NCBI GenBank assembly: GCA_016938695.1
Contig: JAFGUC010000024.1
Span: 186,001 to 250,000 of the forward strand
Direction of reading: 5' to 3'
DNA from: Candidatus Woesearchaeota archaeon
GTDB lineage: Archaea; Nanobdellota; Nanobdellia; Woesearchaeales; JAFGUC01
DNA: 64,000 bases
Part shown: positions 2,454-44,635 of the stretch, in pieces
Position numbering within the stretch: position 1 is the stretch's first letter
Layout of the letters: each line of letters begins with the position of its first letter
Notes under the pieces: generated by a model
Database searches by the model: none
What the model was told of the DNA's origin: nothing
The model's input: the letters and a program-made list of their open reading frames with translations, nothing else
Made by a program: the position numbers and the translations under genes

Positions 2454-2921
2454 TTATGATACTTTTGCTGTAACTGAACCCGAGTGTGGATGAGTTTGTC
2501 CAGAGAACTGATTTGTATATTCAAAAGTCAAATCAGATTTGAACTTACCACCTGCAGTTAGTGCACCACAATCCCATGTTAAAGTTACTTTTTCACCATT
2601 AGGTACTGTGTTTGGACTTGCTGTAAATCCACCAACTGTTGCGCAGTCTCCTGTTCCAGAAACACCGCTAGTTCCGTTATTAACTTGTATTGTTTGTCCT
2701 AAATTGTTCTGTAATACAATTGTGACTGTTCCTGCTGATCTAACAACTGCGTAATCAATGTTTGGCAAAGGTGCCATGAACGTTGTTTTTTCAGCAAGCA
2801 TTTTATCAGGACTAAGTACTCCAAAGTATGCTAGAGCTCCGATTGCAGCTAGAACTACCAAGATAGCCCAACCGTAAGTCATTAAGAACTCCATTGCTGC
2901 TTGTGCTTTTTTGTTCAACAT
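2454..2921 (-). CDS. Class III signal peptide type IV pilin
   Basis: This 155-aa protein starts MLNKKA followed by QAAMEF and a hydrophobic helix to about residue 35. KA|QxxxEF is the cleavage site of archaeal prepilin peptidase, with Glu at +5 of the mature protein. The helix polymerises into the filament core; the remainder is a beta-rich head with a small Gly/Thr-rich loop and two cysteines. The start was set at the ATG because the GTG two codons upstream lies inside a GAGGTGAT Shine-Dalgarno sequence three bases before it. The gene stands alone with its own TATA box (2966-2975), about 3.6 kb from the secretion machinery at 6.5-19.2 kb. It may be the major pilin for that machinery, which is inference. 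Confidence 0.88.
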   Translation of the reverse strand: MLNKKAQAAMEFLMTYGWAILVVLAAIGALAYFGVLSPDKMLAEKTTFMAPLPNIDYAVVRSAGTVTIVLQNNLGQTIQVNNGTSGVSGTGDCATVGGFTASPNTVPNGEKVTLTWDCGALTAGGKFKSDLTFEYTNQFSGQTHPHSGSVTAKVS

Positions 2922-2965
2922 AATCACCTCTTTTGAGATTTGTATGAATGTTATTAGGGTGTTTT

Positions 2966-2975
2966 GTTTAAATAG
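2966..2975 (-). promoter_or_regulatory. TATA box of the pilin gene
   Basis: Read on the minus strand the sequence is CTATTTAAAC. It is centred about 49 bases before the ATG at 2921, which puts the predicted transcription start near 2944 and leaves a leader of about 23 bases holding the GAGGTGAT ribosome site. Confidence 0.5.
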
Positions 2976-3115
2976 TTTACTATTTTGTATACTGGTATAT
3001 TTATATGATTATATTATGTATTACGGCCCTTCTTAAGGCTTTAGACAGCATATTGATAAAAATGTTCCATATTTTATAAAATAATATAAACCAATTCTTC
3101 AATTACTATTAGTAT

Positions 3116-4642
3116 ATGGAAGCAAAAAAAAGAGTGATTCTCGTTATTCGAGATGGTTGGGGTCATGGCGCACATGACAAAGGAAATGCCATTTTTCTAG
3201 CAAAAACACCAAATCATGATTCATACAAAACAACATATCCTTGTTCTTTATTGCAATGCACTGGTAATTTTGTAGGTAATCCAAATGGTGTTCAAGGTGG
3301 CTCAGAAGTGGGTCATTTAACAATTGGTGCAGGACGAATTGTTTGGCAACCATACGAACTAATCAATAAAAAAATTGAATCCAAAGAATTCTTTGAAAAT
3401 CCTGCACTTTTAGATGCAATACGAAAATGCAAAGACAAGAATTCAGATTTACATTTAGATGGTCTTTTTTCAGATCAAGGAATTCATGCGGACTATAGGC
3501 ATATGCATGCAATTTTAGAGCTTTGCAAAAAAGAAAATTTTGACCGTGTGTATATTCATTTAACTTTAGACGGACGAGATGTTCCTGAAAAATCAGCTTC
3601 AAAATTTATAGAAGAAACACAAAAAGCAATTGATACAATAGGTGTTGGGAAAATTGCAAGTTTAATCGGTCGTTATTATGCAATGGACAGAGATAGAAAT
3701 TGGGACAGAACAAAAGCCGCTTATGATTTACTTGTTAATGGAAAAGGTTTCCCCGCAAAAAATCCCTTAGACGGATTGAAGTTAGCATACGAACGAGGAG
3801 ATAAGACTGATTACTATGTTCAACCAACAGTTGTAATTAATCAAAATAATGAACCAATTGCTTGTGTTAAAGAAAATGATTCTTTCATCTGGTACAACTT
3901 CAGGTCAGATAGGTCCAGACAAATTACTGCAATGTTAATGGGTTTAGATTACTGTCCACAAATTCCAGAAGGACGTCCAAATATTAATTATGTTTGTTTC
4001 TCTGTGTATGATTCAAATTGGAACATTCCTGTTGCTTTTCCTCAGACAAAAGTTGAAAATAATTTAGGACAAACAGTATCTAAATACGGTTTGACACAAT
4101 TAAGAATTGCAGAAACAGAAAAATACGCTCATGTAACATTTTTCTTCAATTCACAAGAAGACTTACCTTACGAAAAAGAAGATAGGATATTAGTTGATTC
4201 TCCAAAAGTTTCATCATATGATCAAAAACCAGAAATGTCTGCATATGAAGTTACTGAAAAAGTCTTACCAGAAATTGGAAAATACGATTTAATCGTACTA
4301 AATTTTGCAAATCCAGATCTAGTTGGTCATAGTGGAGTTTTAGATGCAACCATAAAAGCTTGTGAAGTAGTAGATGAATGTGTTGGTCGTGTAGTCGAAA
4401 AAGCAAGACAAGAGAATTATACAATTCTATTAATGGGCGACCATGGAAATGCAGATCATATGTTATATGAAAATGGCGAACCAGACCCAAGTCATGGATT
4501 TAACCCAGTTCTTTTAACAATAATAAGTGAAGAAAAAAAAGAATTAAATGATGGGAGCATGCAAGACATTGCGCCAACAATTCTTGATATCTTGGGCGTA
4601 GAAAAACCAAACGAGATGACAGGAAAATCTTTATTTAAGTAG
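3116..4642 (+). CDS. gpmI: 2,3-bisphosphoglycerate-independent phosphoglycerate mutase, bacterial two-domain type
   Basis: The enzyme interconverts 3- and 2-phosphoglycerate in glycolysis and gluconeogenesis through a phosphoserine intermediate and two metal ions. The nucleophile is S63 in GGSEVGHLTIGAGR; D13 in IRDGWG and the late GDHGNADHM and HSG motifs supply metal ligands. The DGRDVP and GRYYAMDRD motifs mark the inserted phosphotransferase domain. Its 508 aa and two-domain plan are those of bacterial and plant GpmI, not the shorter archaeal ApgM (about 400 aa). A TATA-like AATATAAA near 3083-3090 lies about 27 bases before the ATG, so the mRNA is probably leaderless. It converges on the ThiF gene with an 8-base overlap. 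Confidence 0.95.
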   Translation: MEAKKRVILVIRDGWGHGAHDKGNAIFLAKTPNHDSYKTTYPCSLLQCTGNFVGNPNGVQGGSEVGHLTIGAGRIVWQPYELINKKIESKEFFENPALLDAIRKCKDKNSDLHLDGLFSDQGIHADYRHMHAILELCKKENFDRVYIHLTLDGRDVPEKSASKFIEETQKAIDTIGVGKIASLIGRYYAMDRDRNWDRTKAAYDLLVNGKGFPAKNPLDGLKLAYERGDKTDYYVQPTVVINQNNEPIACVKENDSFIWYNFRSDRSRQITAMLMGLDYCPQIPEGRPNINYVCFSVYDSNWNIPVAFPQTKVENNLGQTVSKYGLTQLRIAETEKYAHVTFFFNSQEDLPYEKEDRILVDSPKVSSYDQKPEMSAYEVTEKVLPEIGKYDLIVLNFANPDLVGHSGVLDATIKACEVVDECVGRVVEKARQENYTILLMGDHGNADHMLYENGEPDPSHGFNPVLLTIISEEKKELNDGSMQDIAPTILDILGVEKPNEMTGKSLFK

Positions 4643-5339
4643 AACAAACAGCACAATTTTTTTTCTTATTTGTTTTTAATTTCAAAAAGGACATAGTTTT
4701 AAGATTAAAAATAATCATTTCTTCAAACAATGAATCATCATTCATAAGTATTTTAAACGCAGTATCTGCAAGAAGACACGCAGAAGTGTGAGCTGTTGTA
4801 TTTAGTATTCCTTTGTTTTTCTGAACAGTTTTTTCTCCAAGAATACAATTCAAACAAGGTTTACTTGATTCAGGATTGACAATATATATTCGAACATCAC
4901 GTTGTGATGCAGACGCATAGATTAATTTTTTCTTTAATTTGTACGCAATTTTATTTAGCAATAATTTCATCTGGATTTTATCAGTACAATCTAGAATAAG
5001 TTGTGCACGTGATATTTTATCAAGATTTTTGAATGTTAACTTTTCTTCAAAAATATTAACCTTGACATTTGAGTTGATTTTTTTCAGTTCAGATTTTAGA
5101 CATTTAACTTTACTTTTTCCAACATCAGATTCTTTGTATAATACTTGTCGATTAAGATTACTTGTGGAAATAAGATCATTATCAAATACAATTAATTCTC
5201 CAACTCCTGATCTGCAAAGAAGTTCTGCGCAAGCACTTCCAATACCTCCTGCACCAATTATTGCGACACAAGAATTTGAAAGTTTATTCTGGTTAGAAAT
5301 TCCCCAATGCTTTATTTGCCTATCATAGCGTGTATTCAT
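4635..5339 (-). CDS. ThiF/MoeB/HesA-family E1-like adenylyltransferase
   Basis: E1-like enzymes adenylate the C-terminal glycine of a ubiquitin-fold sulfur carrier for thiolation, molybdopterin synthesis or protein modification. The ATP site GAGGIG is at 29-34, followed by the conserved NLNRQ. Zinc-binding CxxC pairs are C162/C165 and C229/C232. C188 in HTSAC is a possible catalytic cysteine. There is no rhodanese domain (234 aa). The ATG overlaps the stop of the cysteine desulfurase gene as ATGA, so the two are coupled: the desulfurase would supply persulfide sulfur and this protein activated carrier. The carrier protein itself is not in the window, so thiamine, tRNA thiolation and sampylation cannot be told apart. 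Confidence 0.88.
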   Translation of the reverse strand: MNTRYDRQIKHWGISNQNKLSNSCVAIIGAGGIGSACAELLCRSGVGELIVFDNDLISTSNLNRQVLYKESDVGKSKVKCLKSELKKINSNVKVNIFEEKLTFKNLDKISRAQLILDCTDKIQMKLLLNKIAYKLKKKLIYASASQRDVRIYIVNPESSKPCLNCILGEKTVQKNKGILNTTAHTSACLLADTAFKILMNDDSLFEEMIIFNLKTMSFLKLKTNKKKNCAVCST

Positions 5340-37652: not shown

Positions 37653-38774
37653 TCACTCAAATATTTTCTTGATTCTGTTAAAAAATTTTTTCTTTTTTGA
37701 ACCCTTATCAAATTCTTTTAATAATTGTTTTTGTTCCGCAGTTAAACTTTTTGGAACTTCTACAACGACAGTAACATAAAGGTTACCTCTAGATTTAGTA
37801 TGAAGTTTAGTAACTCCTTCATTTGGAATTCTAAATGTTGTATGACTTTGAGTTCCCGCAGGTATTTTTAATTCAACGTTTTTCTTATCAATTGTTTGAA
37901 TATCAACTTTTCCACCAATTGCTGCAACTGAAAATGATATTGGAACTTGGCATAATAAATCATATTCATCTCTTTCAAAGAATTCGTGTTCTTCTATTGA
38001 AATATGTAAATACAAGTCGCCTGCCAAAGATTTATTTAAACCAGCTTCACCTTCGCCAGTCATTCTTATTCTTTGTCCATTGTCAATTCCTGCAGGAATT
38101 GCAATTTCAATCTTTCTGGTTTGTTTTACTCTTCCAGTTCCATGACACGTCTTACATTTATTTTTGATTGTTTTTCCTTGTCCACCACAAGCAGAACATG
38201 TAACAGATTGACGCATTATTCCAAATGGTGTTCTCATTTGTCTATATTCAACACCTGCGCCATGGCAAACAGGACATGTTTGTACGTCTGAACTAGATTC
38301 TGCACCAGAACCGTTACAATCTGAACAAGTTTCATGTCTTGGAATTGTTATTGTTTTTTTTGCACCAAAAACTGAATCCTCAAGATTAATTACTAATTCA
38401 AATTCTAGGTCTGCTCCTCTTTGACTTTGATGTCGTCTTCCACCTCTTGATCCTCCACCAAAAAAAGAACTAAAAATATCTTCAAAATCTGCTCCACCAC
38501 CAAATCCGCTGAATCCAAAGTCTCCTTCATTAAATCCGCTGAATCCTTGGTAGTTGTTATCGCTAGAACCAAATCGATCATAATTAGAACGTTTCTTTTC
38601 ATCACCTATGACTGAATATGCTTCATTAATCTCTTTAAATTTCTCTTCAGATTCCTTTGAGTGATTATTTAAATCAGGATGATGTTGTTTAGCAAGTTTT
38701 TTGTACGCTTTCTTTATTTCTTCAGAACTCGCATCCTTTGAAACTCCCAATGTCTCATAATAGTCTTTTGCCAT
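37653..38774 (-). CDS. dnaJ: Chaperone DnaJ (Hsp40), type I
   Basis: DnaJ stimulates DnaK ATPase and delivers substrates. The J domain (1-70) has HPD in KQHHPDLN, then a Gly/Phe-rich stretch (72-105) and four CxxCxGxG zinc repeats (about 134-210: CSDCNGSG, CPVCHGAG, CSACGGQG, CKTCHGTG), followed by the C-terminal substrate domains. Full length, 373 aa. Two bases separate it from the HAD gene. DnaK systems in archaea are taken as bacterial acquisitions. Confidence 0.97.
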   Translation of the reverse strand: MAKDYYETLGVSKDASSEEIKKAYKKLAKQHHPDLNNHSKESEEKFKEINEAYSVIGDEKKRSNYDRFGSSDNNYQGFSGFNEGDFGFSGFGGGADFEDIFSSFFGGGSRGGRRHQSQRGADLEFELVINLEDSVFGAKKTITIPRHETCSDCNGSGAESSSDVQTCPVCHGAGVEYRQMRTPFGIMRQSVTCSACGGQGKTIKNKCKTCHGTGRVKQTRKIEIAIPAGIDNGQRIRMTGEGEAGLNKSLAGDLYLHISIEEHEFFERDEYDLLCQVPISFSVAAIGGKVDIQTIDKKNVELKIPAGTQSHTTFRIPNEGVTKLHTKSRGNLYVTVVVEVPKSLTAEQKQLLKEFDKGSKKKKFFNRIKKIFE

Positions 38775-38775
38775 T

Positions 38776-39450
38776 TTACTTCAGTATTTGATCTTTGAAA
38801 TCTTGAATATTTGATATGTAAATACTAGCTTCTTTCTTTAAAAATTCTGTTATTTCCGGAACATTATTTTTTCCTTGTCTTGCCCAGTCAACACCTATTG
38901 TAGTGCAACCAAAATTATTTCCCATGACAATTCCTTCTTTTGAATCGTCTACAACTAATATTTCTTCAGGCTTTAAGTTGTATTTTTTTGCGATATTGTC
39001 CACAATCCAAGTACTTGGTTTTCGCTTACCGTCACCAACGCCCCAGCCATAAATTAAATCAGGCATTATCTTTGAATTGATTTCGTAATCCCTTTTAATG
39101 TTTTTTTCCAATGAAAAAGAAGAAACTACAATCTTTCCTCCTTTCTCTTTGTATTCTTGTAATATCTCTGGCATTCCCTCAAAAAATTTAGGTGGATGTT
39201 TTGAGACAAACTCTGACCAAAACTTAAATTCCTCTTCCCAATCTTTTTCAGTGAATGCAAGATTAGTTTTACAAAATGTCATAAATCCTGGATCGTAACA
39301 AACCTTGTACCAATTCTCCCTTTTGATGGGTATCGCTCTTGGTTTGTATTTCTTCATAAATTCAACATGTGCTTTATGATGTAGAGCCAACCCACTTTCT
39401 ACAACAGTATCATCATGATCCAACACTATGCATTTATATTTTAGTTCCAT
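38776..39450 (-). CDS. HAD-superfamily phosphatase
   Basis: A phosphoglycolate-phosphatase-like HAD hydrolase. Motif I is LDHDDT with D11 and D13, the cap is helical (20-90), motif II is VSSFS near 110, the motif Lys is in KRKPS, and motif III is VVDDSKEG near 168. The substrate cannot be predicted. Its place between dnaK and dnaJ is unusual: HAD phosphatases are not normal members of the chaperone operon, and spacing of 24 and 2 bases suggests it is made with them. Confidence 0.85.
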   Translation of the reverse strand: MELKYKCIVLDHDDTVVESGLALHHKAHVEFMKKYKPRAIPIKRENWYKVCYDPGFMTFCKTNLAFTEKDWEEEFKFWSEFVSKHPPKFFEGMPEILQEYKEKGGKIVVSSFSLEKNIKRDYEINSKIMPDLIYGWGVGDGKRKPSTWIVDNIAKKYNLKPEEILVVDDSKEGIVMGNNFGCTTIGVDWARQGKNNVPEITEFLKKEASIYISNIQDFKDQILK

Positions 39451-39474: not shown

Positions 39475-41304
39475 TTATTTATCTCCTTTTTTGTCTTTAA
39501 CTTCGTAGTCTGCATCAACAGCATCTTTTTCTTTAGCATCAGAACCTTCTGGTTGTTGTTGCTGTTGTGCTGCTTTCTGATACATTTCAGTTGATGCTTT
39601 TTGTACTAACTGATTCAATTCTTCTAGTTTTTTCTTGATTTCTTCTATATTATTTTCTTTATTTTCTAAAAGTTTCTTTAAATCTTCAGTACTTTTTTTG
39701 ACTGTTTCAATTTCTTTTGCGTCAACTTTTCCTTCGAAGTCTTTAAGCAATTTTTCTGTTGAAAAAACAACACTTTCCGCTTGGTTAATTGTTTCCACAG
39801 TATCTTTTTTCTTAAGATCTTCCTCAGCGTGGTCTTCAGCGTCTTTCTTCATTTTTTCAATTTCTTCATCGCTTAAATTTGTAGATGCTGTAATTTTAAT
39901 TGATTGCTCCTTGTTTGTTGCTTTATCTTTTGCACTAACATGAACAATTCCGTTTGCATCTATATCGAATGTTACTTCAACTTGTGGAACACCTCTTGGT
40001 GCTGGTGCAATTCCAACTAAATCAAATTGACCTAGGACCTTGTTGTCTCCAAACATTGTTCTTTCTCCTTGACCAACTCTAATCGTAACTGCTGTTTGAT
40101 TATCTTCTGCAGTACTAAATACTTGAGATTTTTTTGTTGGAATTGTTGTGTTTCTCTCAATCATTTTAGTAAATACTCCACCAAGTGTTTCAATACCTAA
40201 TGATAATGGCGTAACATCTAAAAGTAAAACATCTTTAACTTCTCCACCAAGAATTCCTCCTTGAATAGCAGCACCAATTGCAACAGCTTCATCAGGGTTA
40301 ACTGATTTGTCGCCGTCTTTACCAGTAATATCTTTAACTAGTTTTTGAACTGCTGGAATTCTAGTTGAACCACCAACAAAGATGACTTTGTGGATTTCAC
40401 TAGGACTCATACCTGCATCTTTTAGAGCATTCATTGTTGGAACTTTTAATTTCTCTAAGATATCTCCAATTAATGATTCAAATTTAGCTCTAGTTAATTC
40501 GATATTGATGTGCTTTGGACCATTTTGATCAGCTGTGATAAATGGCAAATTAATTGACGAACTCATTTTTGATGATAATTCAATCTTTGCTTTTTCAGCT
40601 GCTTCGTATAATCTTTGCAAAGCCATTTTATCGTTTTTCAAATCGATATTATTTTCTTTTTTGAAATTTTGAACTAACCAATCAACGATTAATTGATCAA
40701 CATCGTCTCCACCCAATCTGTTATCTCCGTTGGTTGCTTTAACTTCAAATACTCCATCTCCAAGTTCAAGAATGGATACATCAAAAGTTCCTCCACCAAA
40801 GTCGAAAACTAAAATTGTGTGCTCATTGCTTTTATCTAGACCGTATGCAAGACTTGCAGCAGTTGGTTCGTTAATAATCCTTTTAACATCAAGACCCGCG
40901 ATTTTTCCAGCGTCTTTAGTTGCTTGTCTTTGAGAATCTTCAAAGTATGCAGGAACAGTAATTACTGCTTCAGTTACTTTTTCACCAAGATAATTCTCTG
41001 CGTCTTCTTTTAGTTTTTGCAAAATCATTGCAGAAATTTCTTGTGGTGTGTAATCTCTTCCTTCAAGAGAAACTTTATAGTCTTCTCCCATATGTCTTTT
41101 GATACTTCTAACAGTGTGTTCGTGATTAATTACTGCTTGGTTTTTTGCAACCTGACCAATTAATCTTTCACCGTTTTTCATAGCAACAACACTAGGTGTT
41201 GTTCTATATCCTTCTGCGTTAGTAATTACAACAGGTTTTCCACCCTCCATTACAGATACGCAGGAGTTTGTTGTACCAAGATCGATTCCAATTATTTTTC
41301 CCAT
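39475..41304 (-). CDS. dnaK: Chaperone DnaK (Hsp70)
   Basis: The 609-aa Hsp70 has the ATPase signatures [26 protein letters not shown] and [14 protein letters not shown], then the substrate-binding domain with [14 protein letters not shown], and a lid ending in a Gln-rich stretch and an acidic/Lys tail in place of the EEVD of eukaryotes. A GGAGG ribosome site lies eight bases before the ATG. DnaK works with GrpE and DnaJ, both encoded in the same operon, to refold proteins after stress. Confidence 0.98.
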
Positions 41305-41319
41305 TTTTTATTCCTCCGA

Positions 41320-41829
41320 TTATTTTAAAATATCGTAATTCATTATTTTTTTAAGTATTTCCTCGTCATCAACGATGTCTTGAACTTTCCCACCATTAAT
41401 AACCTCTTTGTTATCAGTGTATATTTTCCAAGCTCGAATTGACTCGGGATTATGTTGATCCACGCTAAAATTTAAGTGAAACCATTGTAACAATTCATCT
41501 CCATATTTGTTACAATTCCCTATTCTACAATAGAGAGGTTTTACATTTTGAATTTGACATTGATTTTCCTCCGATAAAAACACACATCGTCCGTGTGGTA
41601 ATTTTTTATCTTTGATTTGTTTAAGCTTCTTATGACTTGTTCCATAATATTCGAAATCATCTAAATATTCTGAAACAAATTTTTCTTCCTTCATGTTTAT
41701 TGCATTTGCAATTTTAGGAACTTCATTTTTCAATACAATCCCGCTTCCAAATTTGCAACAATGCCCGCATTTATTGCAATCCTTTGCAAGTTCTTCAATA
41801 ATTAATTGGGATGTATTTTTTTCAATCAT
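41320..41829 (-). CDS. YkgJ-family Cys cluster protein
   Basis: The N-terminus shows CNKCGHCC (CxxCxxCC) and later single cysteines in GRCVFL, NQCQI, LYCRIG and NCNKYG, the PF03692-type cluster thought to bind an Fe-S or zinc site. The protein is 169 aa and soluble. Function is unknown in the family. It overlaps grpE by four bases and stops 15 bases before the dnaK start, so it is part of the chaperone operon; a redox- or metal-linked role there is only a suggestion. Confidence 0.85.
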   Translation of the reverse strand: MIEKNTSQLIIEELAKDCNKCGHCCKFGSGIVLKNEVPKIANAINMKEEKFVSEYLDDFEYYGTSHKKLKQIKDKKLPHGRCVFLSEENQCQIQNVKPLYCRIGNCNKYGDELLQWFHLNFSVDQHNPESIRAWKIYTDNKEVINGGKVQDIVDDEEILKKIMNYDILK

Positions 41830-42386
41830 TGTGCAATTTTGACTTTTGCAGTTCGTATAACTTTTCCATTAAGTTTATACCCTTTCTGCAAAACTTCAAG
41901 GACAACATGTTTCTTTTTATCAGATTGTTCCTGAAGTAATGCTTCATGTTCGTAAGGGTCGAAATCTTTGCCAACAGCATCAATTTCAGTTAGTCCATTA
42001 TTTTCCAATACTTGCTCGAAATTCTTGTAAATCATCTCAAAACCATTACAAATAATTTCATTATCTGTAGTTTTATGTTTCAATGCAAGTTCAAAGCTGT
42101 CGAGTACGGGAAGGAGTTGAGTAATTATATCTTTTGCAGCAACTTTGATTGATTCAATTCTGTGGACATCCATTCTTTTCTTGTAGTTCTCAAAATCTGC
42201 TTGGACTCGTTTAACTGTGTTTGTCAAATCTATGATTATGTCTTGTTCAGTAATTTCTTTTTTCTCAATCTCTTTTTCTTTCTCTTCAATCTTTTCTAGT
42301 TCTTTATCGATTTCAATATCTAATTTTGAAGAAGCATTTTTGTCTTCTTTTTCAGCATTTTTTTTGTCATGTTTTTTGTGTTCCAT
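41826..42386 (-). CDS. grpE: Nucleotide exchange factor GrpE
   Basis: GrpE releases ADP from DnaK. The first 50 residues are a charged disordered/coiled region, then the long dimer helix (about 50-110, TNTVKRVQADFENYKKRM) and the beta-wing (120-186) with FDPYEHEAL and LQKGYKLNGKVIRTAKVKIA. The start ATG at 42386 lies directly after the operator/promoter of the operon. Its coupling to the Cys-cluster gene is by ATGA-type overlap. Confidence 0.95.
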   Translation of the reverse strand: MEHKKHDKKNAEKEDKNASSKLDIEIDKELEKIEEKEKEIEKKEITEQDIIIDLTNTVKRVQADFENYKKRMDVHRIESIKVAAKDIITQLLPVLDSFELALKHKTTDNEIICNGFEMIYKNFEQVLENNGLTEIDAVGKDFDPYEHEALLQEQSDKKKHVVLEVLQKGYKLNGKVIRTAKVKIAQ

Positions 42387-42394
42387 TTTAACCT

Positions 42395-42415
42395 TTGTTG
42401 ACTTTAAATCAACAA
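42395..42415 (-). promoter_or_regulatory. Operator palindrome at the transcription start of the chaperone operon
   Basis: TTGTTGACTTTAAATCAACAA is a 21-base palindrome with nine of ten arm positions paired around one central base. It covers the position where transcription of grpE should start (about 27 bases after the TATA centre), so a bound factor would block initiation. Confidence 0.7.
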
Positions 42416-42423
42416 TACGCCAA

Positions 42424-42436
42424 CTATTTATAAATT
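42424..42436 (-). promoter_or_regulatory. TATA box of the grpE operon
   Basis: On the minus strand TTTATAAATAG is centred near 42430, 44 bases before the grpE ATG, and lies between the two palindromes. Confidence 0.6.
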
Positions 42437-42440
42437 TTTC

Positions 42441-42457
42441 GTTGACTTTAAGTCAAC
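42441..42457 (-). promoter_or_regulatory. Operator palindrome upstream of the grpE TATA box
   Basis: GTTGACTTTAAGTCAAC has perfect 8-base arms around one central base. Its centre is 44 bases from that of the downstream copy, about four helical turns, placing both on the same DNA face. It abuts the BRE/TATA region and could also act on the divergent metK gene. Confidence 0.7.
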
Positions 42458-42604
42458 AGACCGGAAAATATTCCAAACAGAATAATATTATCAACAACCC
42501 TTATAAATTATGAATTTTTATAGTGTTTTTGGGTTAAAATTTGTCAAATCAAATATTAATGACCAAAAAATACAGTAAATTACTAATAAAATGGGGGATT
42601 TGAA

Positions 42605-43762
42605 ATGGAAAAAAGATTAATTTCTTCGGAATCAGTAACTGAAGGGCATCCAGATAAGATGTGTGATAAGATTTCTGATGCGATTTTAGATGCAATATTA
42701 GAAAACGATCCAACTGCAAGAGTTGCTTGTGAAACAGCAACAAAAAACGGTGGAGTTATGGTTTTTGGTGAAGTCACAACATCATCCTATGTTGATATTC
42801 CACATATTGTGCGAGCCACAATAAATGACATTGGTTATATAAAGTCAGATTATGGAATAGAATATGAAACTGCAACAGTATGGGTACAAATTACTGAGCA
42901 GTCACCTGACATTTCTCAAGGAGTAAGTGAGGGTGAAGGTTTACATAAAGAGCAAGGTGCTGGTGACCAAGGGATGATGTATGGTTATGCATGTAATGAA
43001 ACTCCAGAATTAATGCCTATGCCAATTGTATACGCTCACAAACTAACAAAAAAATTAGCTGATGTGCGAAAAAGTGGAGAAATCAAATATTTACGTCCTG
43101 ATGGAAAATCACAAGTTTCAGTAGAATATGATGAAAATTGGAAACCAAAAAGGATTGATACAGTTGTTATTTCAACACAACACGATGCTAATGTAGAGTA
43201 TGAAACAATTAGAAAAGACGTTATTGAAAAAATAATTAAGCCAGTTTGTGGAGATTTAATTGATTCTGAAACAATATTTCACGTTAACCCAACAGGTGCA
43301 TTTATCCGTGGTGGACCATATGCAGATGCAGGTTTAACTGGAAGAAAAATAATAGTTGATACTTATGGTGGAGTCGGTAGACATGGTGGAGGAGCATTTT
43401 CAGGAAAAGATCCTTCAAAAGTTGATAGATCCGCAGCGTACGCATCAAGATACATTGCAAAAAACATCGTTGCAGCAGGAATTGCAGATAAATGTGAAGT
43501 TCAACTTGCATATGCAATTGGAGTTGCAGAACCAGTTTCCGTCCACGTTGATACATTTGGAACAGGTAAAATAGATGATTTGCAAATAGTCTCTTTAGTT
43601 AGAAAATATTTCCCATTAAAACCAGCAGCAATATTAAAAGAATTGGATTTAAGAAAACCAATTTATTATAATACTGCAGCATACGGTCATTTTGGAAGAG
43701 ATGAATTCTCTTGGGAAAAAACTGACAAAGTAGAACTATTAAAAAAAGAATTAGGAAACTAA
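42605..43762 (+). CDS. metK: S-adenosylmethionine synthetase, bacterial type
   Basis: MetK makes SAM from Met and ATP. The signatures [21 protein letters not shown] (His-Pro-Asp), [12 protein letters not shown] and [19 protein letters not shown] belong to the bacterial/eukaryotic MetK family, not the divergent archaeal Mat. Length, 385 aa, is typical. A GGGGGA lies a few bases before the ATG. It is divergent from grpE across 218 bases containing the palindromic operators. SAM is needed by at least seven SAM-using enzymes in this window. Confidence 0.96.
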
Positions 43763-43782
43763 TTTTTTAATTTTATTTTTTT
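43763..43782. terminator. T-rich convergent terminator
   Basis: Runs of six, four and seven T follow the metK stop and run up to the convergent transporter gene, an archaeal-type oligo-T terminator for metK. Confidence 0.4.
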
Positions 43783-44635
43783 ATATAGATGCAATAACTA
43801 TTCCGATAATTACTGTCAGTAAAGCAATTTTTTGAATTAACTCTAATTTTTCTTTTAAAATAATGCGCGCTAAAATTAAAGTAATTACTGGCGCAGCAGC
43901 AACAATAGGACTAACAATTGATGTCAATGCATTCTTCAATCCCAATGTTAATCCAAACACAGCAAATGCAGACGAAACTGCAGATATAAAAATAGGTTTC
44001 AATTCTTTTAAAGTATATGTGAATGTTTTCTTAGTTATTATCATTAATGCTAGTAAATATAGTATAGAAGTAATTTGAATAGTAAACATTGCAGTAAACC
44101 AATTCGACAACTCAATTAAATAATCTAGAATGACAAAATAAATACCCCAACCAAAAATAGCTAGGAGTAAATAATTTATTCCGCGAGTTGCAGTTTTAAA
44201 TTTTAATCTCATTATATCTTTGTAATGTACTGATGCAAAAATAGTTCCAATAATACATGCACCAATTCCAATAATTTGGTTTATTCTAAGAACCTCGCCA
44301 AAAACAATTATCATTATTGAAATGGTAATTATTGTATATGTCGACGATAAAGGGGTTATTATTGAAACCTTTCCAATTTCTAATGCTTTTAAAAAACCTA
44401 AAAATGCAACAACACCAATTGCAGATTCTCCTAATACAATTAGAATATATTTTAGATTAATATGCTGAGCTTCAAAAAACCAGAAACAAAATGGAAACAC
44501 TAATGCTACTATAAAAATCATTTCTATAAAAAAAGATTTTATCGGATTAGTTTTTTTAACAGCCATTGCAATAAAAAAATCAGAAAGACCATAACCTAAC
44601 ATTGCAACAATTCCAAATAAAATACCTATAATCAT
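43781..44635 (-). CDS. EamA/DMT-family transporter
   Basis: Ten hydrophobic helices in two five-helix repeats fill the 284-aa protein, as in drug/metabolite exporters. Small-residue motifs such as ALEIGKVSIITPLSSTYTII and the later PIVAAAPVITLILARIILKEKL are typical of EamA ends. Substrate is unknown. Its ATG overlaps the trm1 stop (ATGA), so it is cotranscribed with trm1 although unrelated in function. Confidence 0.88.
   Translation of the reverse strand: MIIGILFGIVAMLGYGLSDFFIAMAVKKTNPIKSFFIEMIFIVALVFPFCFWFFEAQHINLKYILIVLGESAIGVVAFLGFLKALEIGKVSIITPLSSTYTIITISIMIIVFGEVLRINQIIGIGACIIGTIFASVHYKDIMRLKFKTATRGINYLLLAIFGWGIYFVILDYLIELSNWFTAMFTIQITSILYLLALMIITKKTFTYTLKELKPIFISAVSSAFAVFGLTLGLKNALTSIVSPIVAAAPVITLILARIILKEKLELIQKIALLTVIIGIVIASI

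Follow-up and report, generated by a model that had tools for sequence, protein, structure and literature searches.

A palindromic operator at chaperone promoters of Woesearchaeota and its probable winged-helix repressor

The window analysed here is a 64,000-nucleotide stretch (C70:186001-250000) of a 1.50-Mb Candidatus Woesearchaeota archaeon genome in 85 contigs. Two palindromes sharing the same arms lie within its grpE-metK intergenic region, all of which is covered by positions 42387-42604, and one stands on either side of the grpE TATA box. This arrangement raises the question of which protein, if any, reads the pair, and whether other promoters carry the same element. The evidence assembled below makes it highly probable that the palindromes are operators of a heat-shock-type proteostasis regulon, bound by a homodimeric winged-helix repressor of Woesearchaeota and of other orders of the same class. 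The features of the locus are as follows.

37653..38774, minus strand: dnaJ, 373 aa; ORF translation with a J-domain-like start and CxxCxGxG repeats
38776..39450, minus strand: HAD-like hydrolase gene between dnaK and dnaJ; family search
39475..41304, minus strand: dnaK, 609 aa; ORF translation, named by sequence resemblance
41320..41829, minus strand: gene for a CxxCxxCC (PF03692) protein; Pfam
41826..42386, minus strand: grpE, first gene of the cluster; Pfam GrpE, E 7e-40
42397-42413, no strand: putative proximal operator (site 1), GTTGACTTTAAATCAAC; read from the letters, same core in grpE promoters of relatives
42426-42435, minus strand: grpE TATA box ATTTATAAAT, between both operators; read from sequence
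42441-42457, no strand: putative distal operator (site 2), GTTGACTTTAAGTCAAC; read from the letters, 44-bp two-site layout also in locus L111

Each palindrome is 17 bp long, and the centres, at 42405 and 42449, are 44 bp apart. Site 2 is a perfect palindrome (8 of 8 arm pairs), while site 1 pairs 7 of 8 arm positions around a central T. Read towards grpE, whose ATG is at 42386 on the minus strand, the order is distal site, GAAAA in the BRE position, ATTTATAAAT, 12 bp, proximal site, 10 bp, ATG. Archaeal transcription starts about 26 bp downstream of the TATA box, the rule by which we predicted the start. About 25.5 bp separate the centres of the TATA box and site 1, which puts site 1 over the predicted grpE start and site 2 against the BRE position. 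The pattern GTTGANNTNANNTCAAC is matched twice in the window with 0.01 matches expected, and none of 100 shuffles reached two, so that the bracketing pair described in an earlier note on this DNA is both present and well above chance.

Genome-wide, GTTGANNTNANNTCAAC has exactly three matches: the grpE pair and a third at C70:511514-511530, directly upstream of hsp20, the site being closely preceded by a TATA box and separated from the ATG by 17 bp. The gene behind it is the sole HSP20 match in the genome (Pfam HSP20), and its promoter carries the start-site operator only. The earlier note had also listed thermosome genes among those to check for the motif; this genome gives no support there, as its single Cpn60_TCP1 gene has no site nearby in the genome-wide motif list. 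Two weaker matches (L004 and L005, three mismatches each) were set aside as not being chaperone promoters; at three mismatches the search of this genome returns 9+12 matches, about equal to the 7+9 for a reversed-pattern control.

The cluster behind the promoter is of the bacterial type; GrpE, DnaJ and DnaK are reported in 74.2% of Woesearchaeota in an excerpt of PMC8407392. The PF03692 gene between grpE and dnaK overlaps the end of grpE, and adjoins grpE in several relatives, which places a cysteine-cluster (CxxCxxCC) protein within a chaperone cluster. On the other side of the intergenic region, the earlier note had suggested that the divergent metK promoter may be affected as well. The metK TATA box (42501-42509) lies 56 bp past the centre of the distal site, with the predicted metK start at about 80 bp. 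MetK was also among the reference proteins compared, and it was found beside no motif in the relatives' loci. An effect of the operator on metK is therefore unlikely.

Recurrence of the motif was examined in a set of 99 genomes, consisting of this genome and 98 others of the same order, with 87 labelled families. At up to two mismatches the motif occurs in 63 of the 99, with 71+75 strand matches versus 13+16 for a reversed pattern that is also palindromic. We examined 88 distinct sites, leaving out the grpE pair of this genome, keeping its hsp20 site, and dropping the duplicates L010 and L013. Seventy-eight are followed within 250 bp by a start of grpE, hsp20, groES, cdc48 or the gene of the regulator introduced below, a count that accepts any start codon per ORF, so that some sites fall inside the longest reading of a gene; the groES and cdc48 assignments come from Pfam searches of ten proteins. 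By target, in overlapping counts, there are 46 sites at grpE, 16 at hsp20, 7 at groES, 4 at cdc48 and 43 at the regulator gene. Among sites with at least 7 of 8 arm pairs, 68 of 71 are upstream of one of these genes. One of the ten remaining sites, in L103, precedes an ORF that is named Hsp20 only at a looser cut-off. Because the 99 genomes span 87 labelled families, close kinship alone probably does not account for the counts. The earlier note had held that absence of the motif upstream of grpE or dnaK in close relatives would refute it; the motif is found in relatives upstream of grpE, hsp20, groES and cdc48. As an aside, the AAA region of the operator-bearing cdc48 in L069 (genome G084, 2612-4999) contains LAGLIDADG and intein-splicing domains.

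The position of the operator relative to the TATA box is also shared. Of 74 oriented sites, 71 have a TATA-like box 16-41 bp upstream of the operator centre, and in 55 of these 71 the operator is downstream of the TATA box, the two centres being 31-41 bp apart. The 44-bp twin layout around a TATA box has a single other case, L111, from another family (genome G081). A second site at -44 accompanies 2 of the 74 oriented sites, and a partial site at -20 accompanies more of them, 7 of 74; the twin arrangement is thus rare and not the general rule. Separately, a conserved half-site-like stretch, ggtaatatcaac, was seen about 20 bp from the main operator, beside the TATA box and on the regulator side, in L199, L194, L206 and others.

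A winged-helix ORF of about 135-140 residues recurs opposite grpE or hsp20 in the relatives. Searched against Pfam, four of these proteins gave a best HTH_20 E-value of 5.7e-9, with two scores (36.3 and 33.9) above the 27-bit cut-off and two (22.2 and 26.3) below it; no NCBIfam model scored above its cut-off for the two proteins searched. The predicted structure (mean pLDDT 89) has helices at 20-30, 40-55, 62-69 and 73-85, strands at 89-92 and 95-98, and a long C-terminal helix at 103-132, which in this model would suit dimerisation. Foldseek matched the model to generic winged helices (best E 0.0047, to 2d1h), and among the 50 VIA-align matches listed the best was 4cic (Z 11.0, rmsd 2.1, 71 aligned), with many matches tied. 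This genome (G000) encodes one copy, a 140-aa protein whose ORF is on the minus strand at C70:166522-166944 and whose match spans C70:166546-166944, outside the window and 61 kb from grpE. It is 35-55% identical to 40 of 41 proteins compared and 24% identical to the other, L077_514, which is in our set A1 and was dropped from A2. Unrelated ORFs picked by length (e.g. L030_257, L112_1242, L119_1394 and L023_185) were excluded. The regulator is present in 79 of the 99 genomes and in 211 of 371 genomes of a phylum-wide sample that includes other orders of the class. Among 14 loci from other orders (L256-L269), ten have a site with up to three mismatches upstream of the regulator and three more have a three- or four-mismatch site at grpE or the regulator; no site was found at L269.

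Several results connect this protein to the operator. Among the 80 named loci, most of which carry a Woesearchaeota or Nanoarchaeota label, 45 have the regulator divergent from grpE and 11 have it divergent from hsp20, making 56 of 80; set A3 holds 71 of these loci and omits the truncated L249 along with eight more. A de novo scan of all 5-mer inverted repeats with gaps of 0-15 ranked GTTGA-N7-TCAAC first, with 55 of the 79 regions upstream of the regulator containing it; the next word outside the same palindrome reached 19. Position weights are near-invariant at GTTGA and TCAAC, with C/T, T/C and T inside. Of 157 regulator ORFs, a tally that counts some loci twice, 104 have the exact core in the stretch examined. 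Across the 99 genomes, site and regulator occur together in 59, the site only in 4, the regulator only in 20 and neither in 16 (Fisher 1.1e-5); the reversed-pattern control leans the opposite way (13, 8, 66 and 12; p 0.03). The regulator is likewise found in 32 of 35 genomes with grpE above cut-off versus none of five without. The earlier note had expected a conserved winged-helix regulator, and the gene described here, divergent from chaperone genes and co-occurring with the motif, answers to that expectation.

The discordant genomes are of two kinds. Three of the four site-only genomes (G033, G036 and G087) have chaperone-linked motifs with no regulator detected, and the fourth, G020, has a weak in-gene match only. 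Ten of the twenty genomes with a regulator and no motif at up to two mismatches were inspected: six loci (L155, L157, L158, L160, L161 and L162) have three-mismatch versions near the regulator or grpE, and four (L156, L163, L167 and L168) have five-mismatch versions only. In L168 (G046) and L167 (G075) the regulator is present with other palindromes upstream, GTTTATTTTAGATAAAC and GTCGATCTTAGATCGAC, which possibly reflect operator drift. In L156 (G012, 1715-2631) the regulator immediately precedes grpE, with both on one strand and the two ORFs touching, and the pair may be co-transcribed. No clear pattern of co-variation emerged between the recognition helix and operator variants. No operator was found upstream of the regulator of this genome or of seven other solo regulators; autoregulation is therefore not general, and self-control is seen only at shared promoters.

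These data bear on what else the palindromes might be. That they are the operator of a different factor, with the winged-helix gene merely a neighbour, is what the 61-kb distance in this genome might suggest, together with the chaperone-linked motifs of G033, G036 and G087. However, the G033 and G087 genomes reach only 84% and 77% completeness, and the 56 divergent loci, the enrichment of the motif in 55 of 79 upstream regions, the co-occurrence and the DNA-binding fold all argue against this explanation, which we hold to be improbable. An origin by chance or from a mobile repeat might be entertained because AT-rich palindromes are common, but two matches were found where 0.01 were expected, and the sites stand at chaperone promoters in genomes of many families, so that this origin can be virtually dismissed.

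Two further explanations concern how the site works. The protein could be an activator or dual regulator whose distal site recruits TBP/TFB, since archaeal activators are known to bind upstream of the BRE, where the distal site lies. Yet the site common to most promoters is downstream of the TATA box (31-41 bp in 55 of 71), where a bound protein would block polymerase, and hsp20 of this genome has a start-site operator only; activation is unlikely. Alternatively, the palindrome might act as RNA, as a leader hairpin serving as thermometer or attenuator, since the site would fall inside the transcript in many relatives. Here, however, the distal site is upstream of the TATA box and outside the grpE transcript, and the stability of the leader fold does not clearly exceed that of shuffled sequences (z 0.8 and -1.0), making the RNA explanation very improbable. 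No Rfam family reached gathering score in 41000-44000.

Comparative genomics therefore supports the earlier note in reading the palindromes as operators for a dimeric repressor, whose binding and repression we infer from sequence. In the mechanism we propose, a winged-helix homodimer of 135-140-residue subunits would bind GTTGA-N7-TCAAC. One dimer would sit over the transcription start and a second against the BRE, blocking the loading of TBP/TFB or of RNA polymerase, and the cluster of grpE, CxxCxxCC gene, dnaK, HAD-like hydrolase gene and dnaJ would thereby be kept low. The second dimer, on the BRE side, would tighten control at this genome's grpE promoter, while hsp20, elsewhere in the genome, would be controlled from a single start-site operator. 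Under stress the repressor would come off through heat lability or chaperone titration; release by heat is suggested because the targets are all proteostasis genes and by analogy with Phr and HSR1, as these appear in excerpts of the sources cited below. More tentatively, and as a possibility we would put at somewhat less than even, an ancestral class-wide stress repressor took over both the bacterial-type (GrpE-DnaK-DnaJ, GroES) and the archaeal (CDC48, Hsp20) chaperone systems as a single-switch regulon, possibly closed by chaperone titration. If so, these uncultured archaea would possess a single-switch proteostasis regulon.

HrcA acting on CIRCE and HspR acting on HAIR are the bacterial repressors of the dnaK operon that work through inverted repeats. 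The window has no CIRCE-like site, and no HrcA gene was found in this genome (7 of 14 control genomes were positive); HAIR-like sites number 5 in the window versus 3.65 expected, none near grpE. The earlier judgement that the operator is neither CIRCE nor HAIR accordingly stands, and the regulator differs from HrcA and HspR in apparently being of ArsR-like HTH type. It resembles ArsR-like HTH_20/HTH_5 proteins, with HTH_20 above cut-off in two of four proteins, but has an N-terminal part of its own, with a conserved SLGLFxxRDKDKSCFR, and a C-terminal helix.

The closer comparison is with Euryarchaeota, the source of both Phr and HSR1, which are the only archaeal heat-shock transcription regulators named in the excerpted text of a 2022 review (PMC9133787). 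Phr of Pyrococcus furiosus, in excerpts of PMC9133787 and PMC10653856, represses hsp20 and an AAA+ ATPase gene from over the start site, blocking polymerase. Here too hsp20 (16 of 88 sites) and cdc48 (4 of 88) are targets, this genome having only hsp20, but the regulon also includes grpE-dnaK and groES, and the elements TTTA, TGGTAA and AAAA around the start, as excerpted from PMC9133787, differ from GTTGA-N7-TCAAC. None of the matches listed from a PDB sequence search with the regulator profile bears the name of the P. furiosus heat-shock regulator, nor was Phr among the 50 VIA-align matches listed. HSR1 of Archaeoglobus fulgidus has, in the same excerpts (PMC9133787, PMC10653856), a palindromic operator and a regulon of hsp20 and an AAA+ ATPase gene, with repression at normal temperature proposed; the palindromic operator and these two kinds of target are shared with the present system. 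Its operator CTAAC-N5-GTTAG is not, giving 21 matches at up to two mismatches in the window versus 21 expected and none in 42387-42604, and whereas hsr1 is in an operon with hsp20 (PMC9133787, in excerpt), the regulator here is usually divergent or solo. In the open-licence PMC literature we found no published description of this operator sequence or of such a regulon. If our reading is correct, this is a third archaeal heat-shock operator-regulator pair, and one belonging to a large uncultured group; with site, protein and targets defined, bench tests would not require the host in culture. On the best reading, by analogy, it would work as the euryarchaeal Phr and HSR1 do, through a different operator and with a bacterial-type DnaK system apparently placed under archaeal-style operator control.
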